This document shows, one piece after another, positions 12,240-17,934 of a stretch of DNA of 64,000 bases. The position numbers and the translations under genes were made by a program. Each line of letters begins with the position of its first letter. Positions within the stretch are counted from its first letter, which is position 1. Where the stretch lies: assembly GCF_017351175.1 (NCBI RefSeq), contig NZ_JAFMPN010000004.1:1-64000 (forward strand). Reading direction: 5' to 3'. The notes under the pieces were generated by a model, which was not told where the DNA came from, did no database searches, and worked only from the letters and a program-made list of their open reading frames with translations. This DNA comes from Desulfovibrio sp. Huiquan2017. Lineage in GTDB: Bacteria; Desulfobacterota; Desulfovibrionia; Desulfovibrionales; Desulfovibrionaceae.

Positions 12240-12256
12240 TTGGCACGCCTTTTGAT
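12240..12256 (+). promoter_or_regulatory. sigma-54-like promoter ahead of fliK
   Basis: TTGGCACG (12240-12247), CCTT and TTGATT form a -24/-12 element. The GG-to-GA distance equals the GG-to-GC distance of the sigma-54 consensus; the -12 GC is replaced by GA. The predicted start near 12267 would give a very short leader with GGAGGAG. It fits sigma-54 control of hook genes and the sigma-54 activator encoded at 39843. Confidence 0.55.
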
Positions 12257-12281
12257 TGAAGACGTGTCGGAGGAGAAAAGC

Positions 12282-14042
12282 ATGCAAAATATTCCCGGCA
12301 TCCCCATCGAAACAGCTTCGAAAGCCGTTCAGTTGGTCAAGCTGGCCACTTCGGGCAAGAGCGCGGTCCAGACCGCTCGCGCCGACGCCGAGGGTGACAA
12401 GAGCGCCCTGTTCGCCGAGCTGTTCAACGAACACACCGATATGGTCGAGGAAGAACTGTCCATGGCCCCGGTGGCGCACAAGGAAAAGATGCTCAACTCC
12501 GCCCCCGGCATCGACAAGGAGGACGACGAAAAGAAGACCTCCAGCGCGGCCGGGACCAAGACCCGCAAAGCCGAAGAAAAGGCCGAGGAAAAGAACCTTG
12601 AGAGCCGCATGACCAGCGAAGACCTGGACGCGGTCCGGGACGACCTCAAGAAATACGGCATGTCCGACGAAGAGATTGCGGCCATCGAGAAGCAGGTCGA
12701 ATCCGAGGAAGGCATGACCTGGGGCCAGTTCGTCTCCACCATCGCCAAGAAGGTGGCCGAGAACCGCAAGGCCGAGATGAACGACGAACAGAAGGCCTCC
12801 CTGGCGAGCTTTTTCTCCAAGCTCGGCTTCAATGAAACGGAGTCCGGCAAGCTCATCAAGCAGTTGCAGGACGGACGGACGGACAAGGTTCTCCAACAGG
12901 TGCAGGCCAAGATCGACGCCATGCCCGAGGACCAGCGGATCTTGTTCACCAAGGACGAGGTCGAGGCTTTCATCTCCTCCATGGGGTTGTCCAAGGAATT
13001 CGTCACCCAGGTCCAGGGACTCTTCGCCTCCAACGCCCTGCCCAAGGATATGAAGCAGGCCTTCACGAAGATCAACCAGGAGCTGGCGGGCCTGGACAAG
13101 AAGGACCAGAAGCTGGTCAAGGCCGTGGGCAAGGCGTTTGCCTCGGCCATGGGCGACACGCAAAAGGCGAGTTCGGCCGCCCTCCAGGTGGAGGAAGCCG
13201 TGGACCTCAAGCCGCGCGTGGCCGAGGACCCGTCCGACGCCGCAGTCCGCGAGGAGCTGGCCCAGGCCTTCCGCGACCGCAAGGACGCCCCGTCCGACAA
13301 CGCGGTCCAGCGCCAGGCCCGGCAATCCGTCGCCGACAAGGCGGCGATCTCGCCCGAGGAATCAAGCCGGGACCAGGCCGACGACCGTGACCTGGACCCC
13401 GACGCCGAGCACGACCGCAAGTGGAACAATTTCGTTGACCGGGTGCGCGAGGACGGGACCGGCCGGAGCGACACCGCCGCCAAGGTCTCCGCCGAGGCGA
13501 AGACGGGCGAAACCAAGACCGTCCTCTCCCAGCAGACGACCGTCGCTGGCGGCGCCAAGGCCAAGGCGTGGGAAAAAGTTTCCGCCCCCAAGGTCCTCAA
13601 GCAGGTGGATCAGGCCATGCTCAAGACCCTGCGCAACGGGGCCAAGCAGCTTACCCTGCAACTCACTCCCGAGAACTTGGGCAAGTTGTCCATCGTCCTC
13701 TCGGTCCACGGCAAGGAAGTCAGCGCGACCATCCGCACCGAGAACTCCGATGCCCACAAGATCATCACGGAAAACCTTCACATCATTAAGAATTCTTTAG
13801 AATCACAAGGCCTGAAAGTTGACAAGCTCGACGTCCAGGCAGGGCTCGCCGACAACCAGAATTCCAACAATTGGTTCAGCGAAAGCGAGCACAATCTGTC
13901 CCGGGAACGGGAGGCCATGGTCGCCATGCGCAACCACATGCGGAGCATGCGGTCCCAAGGAATGAACGGCATGGCCCAGGACGTGCAATCCGTCGGTGAA
14001 CGGGTAATTACTTCCGATCAGGGTTTGCACCTTATCGCATAA
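12282..14042 (+). CDS. fliK: flagellar hook-length control protein
   Basis: This 586-residue FliK senses hook length and switches export specificity. The long, low-complexity N-terminal part is rich in Lys, Glu, Asp and Ala, as usual. The conserved C-terminal Flg_hook domain (about residues 445-530) has the signature LTLQLTPENLGKLSIVL followed by VSATIRTENSDAHKII. The start at 12282 follows GGAGGAG. The frame is open to 12240, but that upstream part overlaps the sigma-54 site. flgD follows 12 bases later. Confidence 0.93.
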   Translation: MQNIPGIPIETASKAVQLVKLATSGKSAVQTARADAEGDKSALFAELFNEHTDMVEEELSMAPVAHKEKMLNSAPGIDKEDDEKKTSSAAGTKTRKAEEKAEEKNLESRMTSEDLDAVRDDLKKYGMSDEEIAAIEKQVESEEGMTWGQFVSTIAKKVAENRKAEMNDEQKASLASFFSKLGFNETESGKLIKQLQDGRTDKVLQQVQAKIDAMPEDQRILFTKDEVEAFISSMGLSKEFVTQVQGLFASNALPKDMKQAFTKINQELAGLDKKDQKLVKAVGKAFASAMGDTQKASSAALQVEEAVDLKPRVAEDPSDAAVREELAQAFRDRKDAPSDNAVQRQARQSVADKAAISPEESSRDQADDRDLDPDAEHDRKWNNFVDRVREDGTGRSDTAAKVSAEAKTGETKTVLSQQTTVAGGAKAKAWEKVSAPKVLKQVDQAMLKTLRNGAKQLTLQLTPENLGKLSIVLSVHGKEVSATIRTENSDAHKIITENLHIIKNSLESQGLKVDKLDVQAGLADNQNSNNWFSESEHNLSREREAMVAMRNHMRSMRSQGMNGMAQDVQSVGERVITSDQGLHLIA

Positions 14043-14054
14043 GCGAGGTCCATC

Positions 14055-14843
14055 ATGGGTTACGTAGATACAACAGGCGTCTATCTGGGGCAGCAAGAGG
14101 ACCGACTTGCCGCTTCGAACTCGCCGAAAGAACATAAGACCAGCCTGGACCAGGATGCCTTCCTGAACATCCTGGTGGCTCAGCTCACGCACCAAGATCC
14201 CCTCAATCCCATGGAGGACACCGACATGACCTCCCAGTTGGCCCAATTCTCAAGCCTTGAGCAATTGACCAGCATAAACAAGGGAATCTCCACGCTGAAC
14301 GAGACCATGTCCCAGAACGACATCCTCACGGCGGTCAGCTTCATCGGCAAGGAGATCAAGGCCGAGGGCTACAAGGTCAGCCTGAACGAAGGCAACGCCT
14401 CGACCATCTACTACGGCTTCGGCGAGAGCGTCACCAGCATCATGATGAACATCTACGATTCCGAAGGAGCCATCGTCCGCACCGTGGAGCTCGGCAGCAA
14501 GGAAGCCGGCACCTACCAGTACACCTGGGACGGCAAGAACGAGAACAACGTGCTGCTGCCCGACGGCCAATACGGCGTGGGCATCATCGGCCAGGACATG
14601 GATGGCGGCTACGTCATGGTCCAGACGGAAATCGCCGGCAAGGTGGATGGCGTGGTCACCGAAAACGGCACCCAGTTCCTGCGCCTGGAGGATGGCCGAT
14701 ACGTCAATATGCTCAACGTCAAGGAAGTCGTCGATCCCAGCGCGTCCCCGACGAAAACGGATGACGACAAGGGTGACGACACGGGCAATGACGACGGCAA
14801 GGACGACGACACGGGCGACGGCGACAACAAAGGCGACGCCTAG
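14055..14843 (+). CDS. flgD: flagellar hook assembly scaffold
   Basis: This 262-residue FlgD caps the growing hook. The conserved N-terminus has LDQDAFLNILVAQLTHQDPLNPMEDT near residue 31 and QLAQFSSLEQL; a FlgD Ig/tudor-like region follows, with VRTVELG, GTYQYTWDGKN and LPDGQYGVGI. The last 30 residues or so are an acidic Asp/Gly/Lys/Thr tail that is not usual for FlgD; its role is unknown. It lies between fliK and flgE in a canonical hook cluster. Confidence 0.95.
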   Translation: MGYVDTTGVYLGQQEDRLAASNSPKEHKTSLDQDAFLNILVAQLTHQDPLNPMEDTDMTSQLAQFSSLEQLTSINKGISTLNETMSQNDILTAVSFIGKEIKAEGYKVSLNEGNASTIYYGFGESVTSIMMNIYDSEGAIVRTVELGSKEAGTYQYTWDGKNENNVLLPDGQYGVGIIGQDMDGGYVMVQTEIAGKVDGVVTENGTQFLRLEDGRYVNMLNVKEVVDPSASPTKTDDDKGDDTGNDDGKDDDTGDGDNKGDA

Positions 14844-14914
14844 ACGACGAACGATCATTTCACGCCGGGCCGAAGGCGGTCCGGCGCTCTTGGAGAAGAG
14901 ATTAGGAGGTTATT

Positions 14915-16588
14915 ATGGGTTTAGGAGCATCACTGTATTCGGGCATTTCCGGCCTGACGGTACACTCGGAACGCATGACGGTCATCGGCAACAACCTGGC
15001 CAACGTGAACACCACGGGATTCAAGGGCGCCATGATGCAATTCGAGGACCTCGCCAGCTCGAATTTCTCTACCGTCCACGGCGTGGGCCAGGTCGGACGC
15101 GGCGTGCGCGTCTCCTCCGTCTATTCGGACTGGGGCCAGGGCGCGTTCGAAGCGTCCACCGCGGCCACCGACATGGCCATCTCCGGCGAGGGCCTCTTCA
15201 TGGTTTCCCCCCCGGGCGAGGAGATGAAGTACTACACTCGGGCGGGCAATTTCCGGTTCAACAACGACGGCTACCTGGTCGATCCCCACGGCTACATCCT
15301 CCAGGGATGGCAGGTGGAGCACAATTCCACATCCGTGACCAAAAGTACCTCGAATTCCGAGCCGACGACCAGTTCCGCGCGGATAATCGGAACGCCGACC
15401 GACATCCGCATGGAGAACTTCCAATCCGATCCCAAAGCGACCTCCAGCGTGACCATCATCAGCAACCTGGACCCCTCGGCCTCGGATAAGTCGACCGATT
15501 CGACCAATCCCTACTTCGCCATGTTCAAGAACTGGCACGGCGAGGACGAAACCCCGTTGGAATCCACCCGGTACGGCTACTCGACCACGCTCAAGGTCTA
15601 TGACGAAATAGGCACGGCCCACAACCTGACCGTGTACTTCGACAAGGTGGCCTTGAGCAACGCGGGCGGCGACACGGTGTGGGAGTTCATGGTCACCTGC
15701 GACCCCAACGACGACCATCGCATGCTGTCCGGCGCCAACGGCATACCGTCTACCATAGGCGACGGCAAGACATCGGCCGCGGGCGTGCTCATGATCGGCA
15801 CCCTGACCTTCAGCACCGGCCGCCTGGCGGGCATGAGCGCCTACACGCTCAAGTCCAACGGCAACGGCAACGTCAAGGACCTGAACAACTGGGACCTGGC
15901 GGACTTCTCCACCAGCGGCCTCCCGGTCTGCACGGCCAACTTCCTGGGGAAGTCCAACGCCAGCACGGCCGAATCCGTCAACGCAACGCCCCTCCAGATC
16001 GACTTTGGCATCTCCAACAAAAACCTGTCGAGCAACGGCGGGCCCGGGACCATCGGCTGGGCCGGCGGCCTGGGCACCATCCCCACCACGGCAGCCATGG
16101 TCGGCAACAACATCAGCAACACCAACTACCTGGCCAACTTCAAGGATCCCGCCATCTCGGCCATGGCCACCCAAAGCGTGGAGAGGGGCGGCTTCTCCAC
16201 CCTGTTCCAAAGCCAAAACGGCTACTCCGCAGGTATTCTGCAGAACATCTCGGTCTCCCGCGAGGGCATCATCTCCGGCCACTATTCCAACGGGCAGGTG
16301 CTGGAACTCTACGCAGTGACCCTGGCCACCTTCACCAACCAGCACGGCCTGCGCCGCGAGGGCGGCAACCTGTTCTCCGAAACGCTGGATTCCGGCCCGG
16401 CCCTGACCGGCCAGGCGGGCAGATCCGGCAAGGGCACCATCGACGGCAACCAACTGGAGATGTCCAACGTGGACATGGCCTCCCAATTCGTCAGCATGAT
16501 CACCACCCAACGCGGATTCCAGGCCAACACCAAAATGATCACCACCGTGGATTCCATGCTCGGCGAAGTGATCTCCATGAAGCGGTAA
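14915..16588 (+). CDS. flgE: flagellar hook protein
   Basis: This 557-residue FlgE is the hook subunit. The N-terminal flagellar rod/hook motif is SLYSGISGLTVHSERMTVIGNNLANVNTTGFKG, and the C-terminal domain ends in NVDMASQFVSMITTQRGFQANTKMITTVDSMLGEVI. The long central region (D1-D3) accounts for its length, about 150 residues more than E. coli FlgE. TAGGAGG lies six bases before the ATG. Confidence 0.96.
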   Translation: MGLGASLYSGISGLTVHSERMTVIGNNLANVNTTGFKGAMMQFEDLASSNFSTVHGVGQVGRGVRVSSVYSDWGQGAFEASTAATDMAISGEGLFMVSPPGEEMKYYTRAGNFRFNNDGYLVDPHGYILQGWQVEHNSTSVTKSTSNSEPTTSSARIIGTPTDIRMENFQSDPKATSSVTIISNLDPSASDKSTDSTNPYFAMFKNWHGEDETPLESTRYGYSTTLKVYDEIGTAHNLTVYFDKVALSNAGGDTVWEFMVTCDPNDDHRMLSGANGIPSTIGDGKTSAAGVLMIGTLTFSTGRLAGMSAYTLKSNGNGNVKDLNNWDLADFSTSGLPVCTANFLGKSNASTAESVNATPLQIDFGISNKNLSSNGGPGTIGWAGGLGTIPTTAAMVGNNISNTNYLANFKDPAISAMATQSVERGGFSTLFQSQNGYSAGILQNISVSREGIISGHYSNGQVLELYAVTLATFTNQHGLRREGGNLFSETLDSGPALTGQAGRSGKGTIDGNQLEMSNVDMASQFVSMITTQRGFQANTKMITTVDSMLGEVISMKR

Positions 16589-16758: not shown

Positions 16759-17769
16759 CTACGAGGTCAGGTCGGCCTTCGCCAGGACCTCGATCAACCG
16801 CCGGAGCATGTCCATGTCGAAGGCGCTGCGCATGGACTTGATCCGCACCAGGGCCTCGAACGGGGTCAACCGCCGCTCCGTGCGGCCGCGCGTGAGATTG
16901 TCGTACTCGTTGCACAGGGCGAGCGCCCTGACGTAGGACGGCAGCATGGCCCCGGTGGATCCCGAAGGATACCCCAGGCCGTCCTCGCGCTCATGGTGGA
17001 AAAGGATGCACTGCAGGGTTTCCTGGGGCAGGGGCAAGGCCGAGCACACGCCCACGCCCAGGGCGGGATGCGACTTGACCAGGTCCTTGTCCGCGCGGCT
17101 CAGCGTTTCGAATTTCTTGGCGAAAATTTCGGGCGGCAGCTCCAACTTCCCGATGTCGTGGAGGAGGGCCCCCATGCCCACGGCCACAATCAGGTCCGAG
17201 TCCTCCTTCATGAACGAGCACAGGGTGGTCACGGTCAGGACCATGACCCCCACGCCGTGCTGGAAGAGTTCCTCGCCTTCGCGGATGAACCGGGCCAACT
17301 CCTTGAGGGCATCCTCGCGCGACAGGAATCTCAATGAATCGGTGATGAGCTTGTGGATGCGCTGGAAGCGACGCTTGTCCACGGGCGCGGGCAGGGAGCG
17401 GTCGAAGGCCTCGCGGGCCAGGGAGGTGGTGGCGTCGCTCCACACCCGGGCGCGCTCGCCTACGGGAATAGACTCGTCGTCCAGAATTTCCAGGATGTTA
17501 TCCTGCAGGTAGCGGGTAAAGAGCGCGTAATCCTCGGTCCGCACATAGAGATGGTCCACGCCGAGCAAGCCCAGCCGCTGTTTGTGCTCCTCGGTGAACA
17601 GCTCGCCTTTTTCCGCGTACAGGACCAGTCGGTCGCCTTGCTTGAGATACAGGGAAAAGCCGCCCACCCGGGAAGGGATGACCATGTAGGGCGAAACCTT
17701 GACCATGGCCCGGGCGCGGCCTCGCTTGCCGTTATGTGCGCCGTTCCCGGCGGGGGGTGGGGTGTCCAT
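16759..17769 (-). CDS. HD-GYP c-di-GMP phosphodiesterase
   Basis: This 336-residue protein should degrade c-di-GMP. Residues about 20-90 resemble the N-terminal DUF3391-type segment found before HD-GYP domains. The HD-GYP domain has LLHDIGK near residue 200 and HHEREDGLGYP near 255, keeping the metal-binding His/Asp and the GYP motif. The ATG at 17769 is preceded by AAGGAG. A longer frame reaches 17832 but would run into the riboswitch aptamer. The gene lies behind a c-di-GMP-I riboswitch (17821-17896), so the enzyme's substrate probably controls its expression. Confidence 0.9.
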   Translation of the reverse strand: MDTPPPAGNGAHNGKRGRARAMVKVSPYMVIPSRVGGFSLYLKQGDRLVLYAEKGELFTEEHKQRLGLLGVDHLYVRTEDYALFTRYLQDNILEILDDESIPVGERARVWSDATTSLAREAFDRSLPAPVDKRRFQRIHKLITDSLRFLSREDALKELARFIREGEELFQHGVGVMVLTVTTLCSFMKEDSDLIVAVGMGALLHDIGKLELPPEIFAKKFETLSRADKDLVKSHPALGVGVCSALPLPQETLQCILFHHEREDGLGYPSGSTGAMLPSYVRALALCNEYDNLTRGRTERRLTPFEALVRIKSMRSAFDMDMLRRLIEVLAKADLTS

Positions 17770-17774
17770 GCATT

Positions 17775-17832
17775 CTCCTTGCCGAGAGCCGGGGGTGCGC
17801 AGGACTCGGAATGTCGATGAGCGCGTCGGCAA
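17775..17832 (-). promoter_or_regulatory. putative riboswitch expression platform over the RBS
   Basis: On the minus strand the 3' strand of the aptamer, TTGCCGA (17826-17832), is perfectly complementary to TCGGCAA (17779-17785). The last two bases of that heptamer are the first two of the AAGGAG ribosome-binding site (17775-17780). Pairing would sequester the site when the aptamer is not folded. Ligand binding would hold TTGCCGA in the aptamer and free the site. The implied direction is activation by c-di-GMP, which is an inference. Confidence 0.55.
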
Positions 17833-17896
17833 CCCGGCCGCCTGCGTGAGGCCCGTGGCTTTCCGTCCCCGTCTCGCGACGGGTTTGGCATTGTCT
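17821..17896 (-). ncRNA. c-di-GMP-I (GEMM) riboswitch aptamer
   Basis: On the minus strand the GEMM-I core is present in order: CAAACC, a CGTC/GACG stem with GNRA loop GCGA (17870-17881), GGGACGGAAAGCC, then a second helix ending in GCCGGGTTGCCGA. The base before CAAACC is C (17888) and the base before AAAGCC is G (17863). In the Vibrio Vc2 aptamer these are G and C, so the change is a compensated pair. The position equivalent to G20 of Vc2 is G (17889) by my alignment, which favours c-di-GMP over the cGAMP-binding variant. It lies in the leader of an HD-GYP gene. Confidence 0.88.
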
Positions 17897-17905
17897 CTAT
17901 TCGCG

Positions 17906-17934
17906 CCTATACGCGCTGCCGCCCGGGCTGTAAA
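17906..17934 (-). promoter_or_regulatory. promoter of the riboswitch-controlled HD-GYP gene
   Basis: On the minus strand, TTTACA (17929-17934), a 17-bp spacer and TATAGG (17906-17911). The predicted start near 17899 falls at the 5' edge of the aptamer, so the leader would consist of the riboswitch. Confidence 0.55.

Follow-up and report, generated by a model that had tools for sequence, protein, structure and literature searches.

A genus-wide c-di-GMP-I riboswitch before a predicted HD-GYP phosphodiesterase gene, with a candidate platform for repression

GEMM elements precede both diguanylate cyclase and phosphodiesterase genes, as a review describes (PMC3971182). The element analyzed here lies on the minus strand of a 64,000-nucleotide stretch of DNA from Desulfovibrio sp. 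Huiquan2017, referred to as the window. It likewise sits on a gene for a probable ligand-turnover enzyme and, because GEMM elements before phosphodiesterase genes have already been reviewed, its switch is of a known kind (PMC3971182). Vc2 and Vc1 of Vibrio cholerae share with the window a two-stem aptamer, the bases G20, A47 and C92, and a position in the 5' leader of the controlled gene (PMC4744006). From this class (RF01051) the window aptamer departs at the core pair, which is C21-G46 and not G21-C46; its P2 is capped by a GCGA loop, its P3 is short and its P1 very weak. Its expression platform is also unlike that of Vc1, in which c-di-GMP raises expression (PMC4744006). Bc1 of Bacillus thuringiensis is another class I aptamer; its expression platform is debated and acts through two intrinsic terminators (PMC11218506), whereas none was found in the window leader. 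By the rule of the scan, the minus strand holds no intrinsic terminator between 17824 and 17769, i.e. between the aptamer and the ATG, and this type of output was rejected.

The useful parts of the present case are the attachment of the riboswitch across a genus and the sign of the switch. No account of one HD-GYP gene carrying such a riboswitch throughout Pseudodesulfovibrio was found in the open-licence literature. A c-di-GMP sensor on the gene of a probable c-di-GMP degrader makes a feedback loop of one gene, and the sign of this loop decides between homeostasis and commitment to a sessile state. Within the genus some 33 natural versions exist, with near-identical aptamer and promoter and fast-changing platforms, a set suited to measuring the evolution of expression platforms and to fixing the sign in sulfate reducers.

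Aptamer, promoter and ligand

A single place in the whole window, 17898-17824 on the minus strand, matches Rfam at gathering threshold (cmscan). RF03167 (c-di-GMP-I-GGC) scores 68.7 bits there (E 3.9e-14, gathering 59), and RF01051 (c-di-GMP-I), the model named for checking in an earlier note on this DNA, scores 65.4 bits at 17899-17825 on the same strand (gathering 35). The RF03167 alignment places G20 at 17889, A47 at 17862 and C92 at 17829, with the core pair formed by C21 (17888) opposite G46 (17863). These three bases are the ligand contacts of c-di-GMP-I according to two sources (PMC4744006, PMC3764141), and the window aptamer carries the canonical set. RF03167 gives the better score of the two models, yet its consensus has G at position 47 where the window has A (17862), and for this reason the aptamer is assigned to the canonical class. 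Its P1 is weak, with one standard and two non-standard pairs among its three consensus pairs. The 3' strand GCCGGGTTGCC (17828-17838, minus), which includes C92, comprises the end of P3 and the junction to P1.

The promoter-like sequence consists of a -35 hexamer TTTACA (17929-17934, minus) and a -10 hexamer TATAGG (17906-17911, minus) separated by a 17-nt spacer. TTTACA is kept in all 40 ortholog leaders read and the loose -35/-10 pattern in 38 of them, counts in which 7 of the 40 leaders repeat others. A stricter consensus scanner called no promoter at the window leader. A transcription start near 17899, as the earlier note had placed it, is plausible from these motifs. The same note had described a complete GEMM-I aptamer between this promoter and the HD-GYP gene, and the Rfam match and the contact bases confirm it. 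Judged by score and contact bases, the element is a genuine c-di-GMP-I aptamer with predicted ligand binding, and it is very probable that such an aptamer controls the HD-GYP gene in cis.

The swapped pair at 21-46, together with G20, had been put forward as evidence for c-di-GMP. The bases are as stated, but the swap gives no support for the ligand: C21, G46 and A47 occur in 39 of 40 ortholog leaders (7 of the 40 repeat others; the script left the remaining one unread). In 33 GEMM-I loci, taken from the window's genome and from relatives as distant as the same order, the pair is C21-G46 in 24 and G21-C46 in 9, standard every time (the script read 26, 18 and 8; the other seven were read by eye, 6 and 1). 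Neither 21 nor 46 is on the list of highly conserved positions in PMC3764141. Being lineage-wide and outside that list, the swap is no test of ligand identity; on sequence comparison it reflects natural covariation that has become fixed in the lineage, and says little about the ligand.

That the ligand is a different cyclic dinucleotide (cGAMP), or that the element is a GGC-type ligand variant, is very improbable. The higher score to RF03167 (68.7 vs 65.4) speaks for such a reading, as does a 3'3'-cGAMP phosphodiesterase among the PDB relatives of the HD-GYP protein. A change of G20 to A is the mark of cGAMP sensors, and the window has G at position 20; it also has A at 47 against the G of the RF03167 consensus, and C21, G46 and A47 recur in all leaders but the one not read. 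"GGC" in the RF03167 name denotes bases 20/47/92; the GGC variant was rejected on base 47, which is A.

The HD-GYP gene and its leader across the genus

The controlled gene (16759-17769, minus) encodes 336 amino acids from an ATG at 17769, with a Shine-Dalgarno (SD) sequence AAGGAG (17775-17780, minus) 5 nt before it, as seen in the sequence and the leader alignment. The protein matches Pfam HD_5 (PF13487, E 1.4e-22), and its translation contains HDIGK and HHEREDGLGYP; HD and HHExxDGxGYP are the motif set of an HD-GYP phosphodiesterase. Its PDB relatives include 4r8z, a cyclic di-GMP phosphodiesterase, and 5z7c, a cGAMP phosphodiesterase, while the longest match is to 3tm8 (Bd1817), which is reportedly inactive on c-di-GMP. 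The enzyme is predicted, and probably serves, to destroy c-di-GMP.

Several features of the gene and its surroundings were noticed in passing. Its frame has no stop codon as far back as a TTG at 17832, within the aptamer; read from there it would give 357 aa, and automatic annotation could put the gene start at this TTG and so mask the riboswitch. At codons 6-10 (about 17750-17730, minus) an A-G-N-G stretch is kept in most homologs printed, in an N-terminus that is otherwise variable; these codons, GCCGGNAACGGC, could form a GNRA-type hairpin right after the start. Adjoining the end of the gene is a convergent run of open reading frames (12240-16588, plus), flagellar-hook-like by eye, and such neighbors would suit a role in motility.

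All 36 searched genomes of the genus have an HD-GYP homolog at E <= 1e-30, and in 33 of the 36 a GEMM-I match on the same strand immediately precedes the best homolog. The homologs in six genomes (G024, G009, G021, G017, G014 and G032) show only 47-51% identity and are perhaps not strict orthologs. Two genomes (G001, G012) are without a GEMM-I match near the homolog; in a third (G020) the homolog that scores best is partial and sits on another contig, and this genome is not counted among the 33. In the family, 75 of 247 genomes have a GEMM-I match of any kind. The genus is taken to be Pseudodesulfovibrio because the named loci, reached through the HD-GYP protein alignment, are mostly of that genus (six from Pseudodesulfovibrio, the seventh an unplaced Desulfovibrionaceae record); these seven loci repeat leaders already in the set. 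One genome (G026:C1:2296041-2297192, plus, L065) has the sole leader seen with A rather than G at position 20; here the HD-GYP homolog comes as two overlapping pieces that lie in different stretches. Joint decay of sensor and enzyme, or a change of ligand, may explain this, and a sequencing error is also possible.

Expression platform and direction of control

The proposed mechanism begins with a c-di-GMP-I riboswitch that starts almost at the transcription start and would control synthesis of the HD-GYP phosphodiesterase in cis, probably at translation initiation. Bound ligand would keep the aptamer 3' strand (17838-17828) within the aptamer. A pre-SD element (17798-17788) would then be free to form the 5' side of a hairpin that covers the SD and the start codon, and c-di-GMP would thereby lower enzyme synthesis. 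In the absence of ligand the element could base-pair with the 3' strand of the aptamer instead, leaving the SD open. The proposal that a Pseudodesulfovibrio c-di-GMP riboswitch represses a c-di-GMP phosphodiesterase through these three strands (aptamer 3' strand, pre-SD element, SD/AUG) is tentative, at a probability of roughly 0.3; that c-di-GMP acts as an OFF signal here is a light lean, at a little short of an even chance. If this repression is true, c-di-GMP would protect itself, a positive feedback and possibly a bistable commitment switch.

These ideas were examined on the leaders of the genus. The core pattern missed four leaders (G001, G012, G026, G020a) and one had no start (G020b), which left 32 for the tests of tail helix, SD-opening cost, 3'-strand complement and complement position; a later comparison of SD cost in locked and free aptamers used 25 of the 32. 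The 3'-strand complement and position tests were judged on 21 representatives, hand-picked with one per look-alike group, and the background consisted of 84 leaders from the window's genome only. The leader statistics treat the leaders as independent although they are related. The seven nearest leaders are those of G000 (the window), G002, G028, G013, G007, G010 and G033; in the alignment G002 and G013 are truncated at the 5' side, and their linker columns are complete.

In the consensus fold of these seven leaders the SD and AUG lie inside a predicted hairpin (17766-17794 in the window, minus), with 7 of 9 pairs formed in the window and 56 of 63 cells paired over the seven. The fold has an unfavorable covariation term of +1.93, and no two-sided change occurs in the hairpin. 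The candidate pre-SD element, which ends in CCCGGC (17788-17798, minus), could supply the 5' arm of this hairpin or, alternatively, form 9 of 10 pairs with the aptamer 3' strand. In the order of the leaders given above, the pairs of 10 with that invariant strand number 9, 9, 9, 8, 10, 10 and 6 (61 of 69 cells). By this count the element would be better kept than the heptamer discussed below, as a candidate. In the window itself the predicted probability of pairing 17838-17833 with 17793-17788 is 0.013-0.014, and forcing the core of the pairing costs 3.8 kcal/mol (-56.6 vs -60.4).

The wider set of leaders gives a mixed picture. Of the 21 representatives, 5 have a 3'-strand complement that beats shuffled linkers at p <= 0.05 (median p 0.42 over the set, Fisher 0.008). 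The p value is 0.003 in G011, 0.027 in G004, 0.040 in G022 and 0.050 in G016, with 0.060 in the window; measured against the 84 natural leaders, 1 of 21 reaches 0.05 (Fisher 0.087). In 9 of 21 representatives, vs 12 of 84 background leaders, the complement has its 3' end 15-18 nt ahead of the start; this range was picked after looking, and with it control aptamer strands gave 0 to 7 of 21. The SD-opening cost, free minus locked, is below -0.5 kcal/mol in 17 of 32 leaders and above +0.5 in 3, where shuffled controls give about 13 of 32 below -0.5 anyway. Its mean is -1.29 vs -0.56 (sd 0.11) with shuffled linkers, i.e. opening is dearer when the aptamer is locked. In the 25-leader comparison 5 leaders lean to OFF at p <= 0.1 (Fisher 0.014), and G018 (p 0.98), G032 (0.93) and G030 (0.88) lean the other way. 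Modeling the release of just the last 5 or 8 tail bases gave no consistent change of SD cost over the leaders. A helix of the 14-nt tail with the linker, shared by all leaders, was rejected: of the 32 leaders, which are related, 8 reach p <= 0.05, and the median p is 0.30; the results are suggestive of such a helix in some lineages and not in general.

The earlier note had assigned the opposite sign. In its account an unliganded aptamer heptamer blocks the SD through TCGGCAA and ligand recaptures it, so that c-di-GMP raises its own degrader, a negative feedback that is readily rationalized. The heptamers TTGCCGA (17826-17832, minus) and TCGGCAA (17779-17785, minus) are indeed exact complements over 7 bp, matched by 63 of 5000 shuffled linkers with at least 7 pairs (1.3%; tail and SD fixed, in a test framed after the feature was known), but their overlap with the SD AAGGAG (17780-17775) is limited to its first two A. 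Counted out of 7, the heptamer pairs number 7 in G000, 5 in G002, 4 in G028, 5 in G013, 6 in G007, 7 in G010 (one of them G-U) and 4 in G033. The high counts in G010 and G007 favor the account, as does an independent 7-nt complement in G017 (TTGCCAA/TTGGCAA, ending 10 nt before the start); against it, the second heptamer is not kept in four of the six nearest relatives, which retain at most 5 of 7 pairs. As a conserved switch for the group of leaders the heptamer was rejected on these lost pairs. For the window, the predicted ensemble gives the heptamer pairing a probability of 0.0, a fold forced to contain it has -50.3 kcal/mol where the unforced one has -60.4 (a cost of about 10 kcal/mol), and the whole-tail duplex test returns p 0.60. 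The readable translational switch through the heptamers is thus not supported. The claim that ligand turns synthesis on fared no better, since the SD-opening cost in the window, free minus locked, is -0.44 kcal/mol in the 32-leader test and -0.08 (p 0.72) in the 25-leader test, about zero or slightly of the other sign; with 5 or 8 tail bases released the difference is -0.24 or -0.12 kcal/mol. The folding model predicts almost no switch for the window, and any sign would be opposite to ON. Overall, an ON switch of this form appears rather unlikely. Also unlikely, and somewhat more so, is that the switch acts on transcription or on RNA stability and that the SD structure is secondary; Rho could, for example, terminate transcription in the C-rich linker. 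YC steps abound in many of the linkers. Among the 84 background leaders the window linker stands at the 95th percentile for YC and the 92nd for C minus G, and G002, G028, G013 and G033 reach the 99th-100th percentile for both measures; however, G007, G016, G019 and G031 are ordinary, and linkers rich in C and poor in G may merely be unstructured leaders.

Other GEMM-I loci

The window's genome has further GEMM-I loci. L001 (G000:C13:42783-42857) and L002 (G000:C2:249280-249354) are strong aptamers (67.5 and 67.4 bits), and the starts of the genes that follow them resemble two-partner-secretion transporters by eye. L004 (G000:C4:189520-189616, plus) is a marginal match at 35.7 bits (cut-off 35); its relatives L074-L078 score 32.5-36.1 bits, and the locus is strongly conserved in six genomes of the genus. 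It has a short P2 with an AYGGAC loop that is not GNRA, and its contact bases look kept. By eye, its aptamer 3' strand could fold into a GGCCG...CGGCC stem with a run of seven T behind it, which would be a terminator-like platform ahead of a small gene to which no function is assigned.
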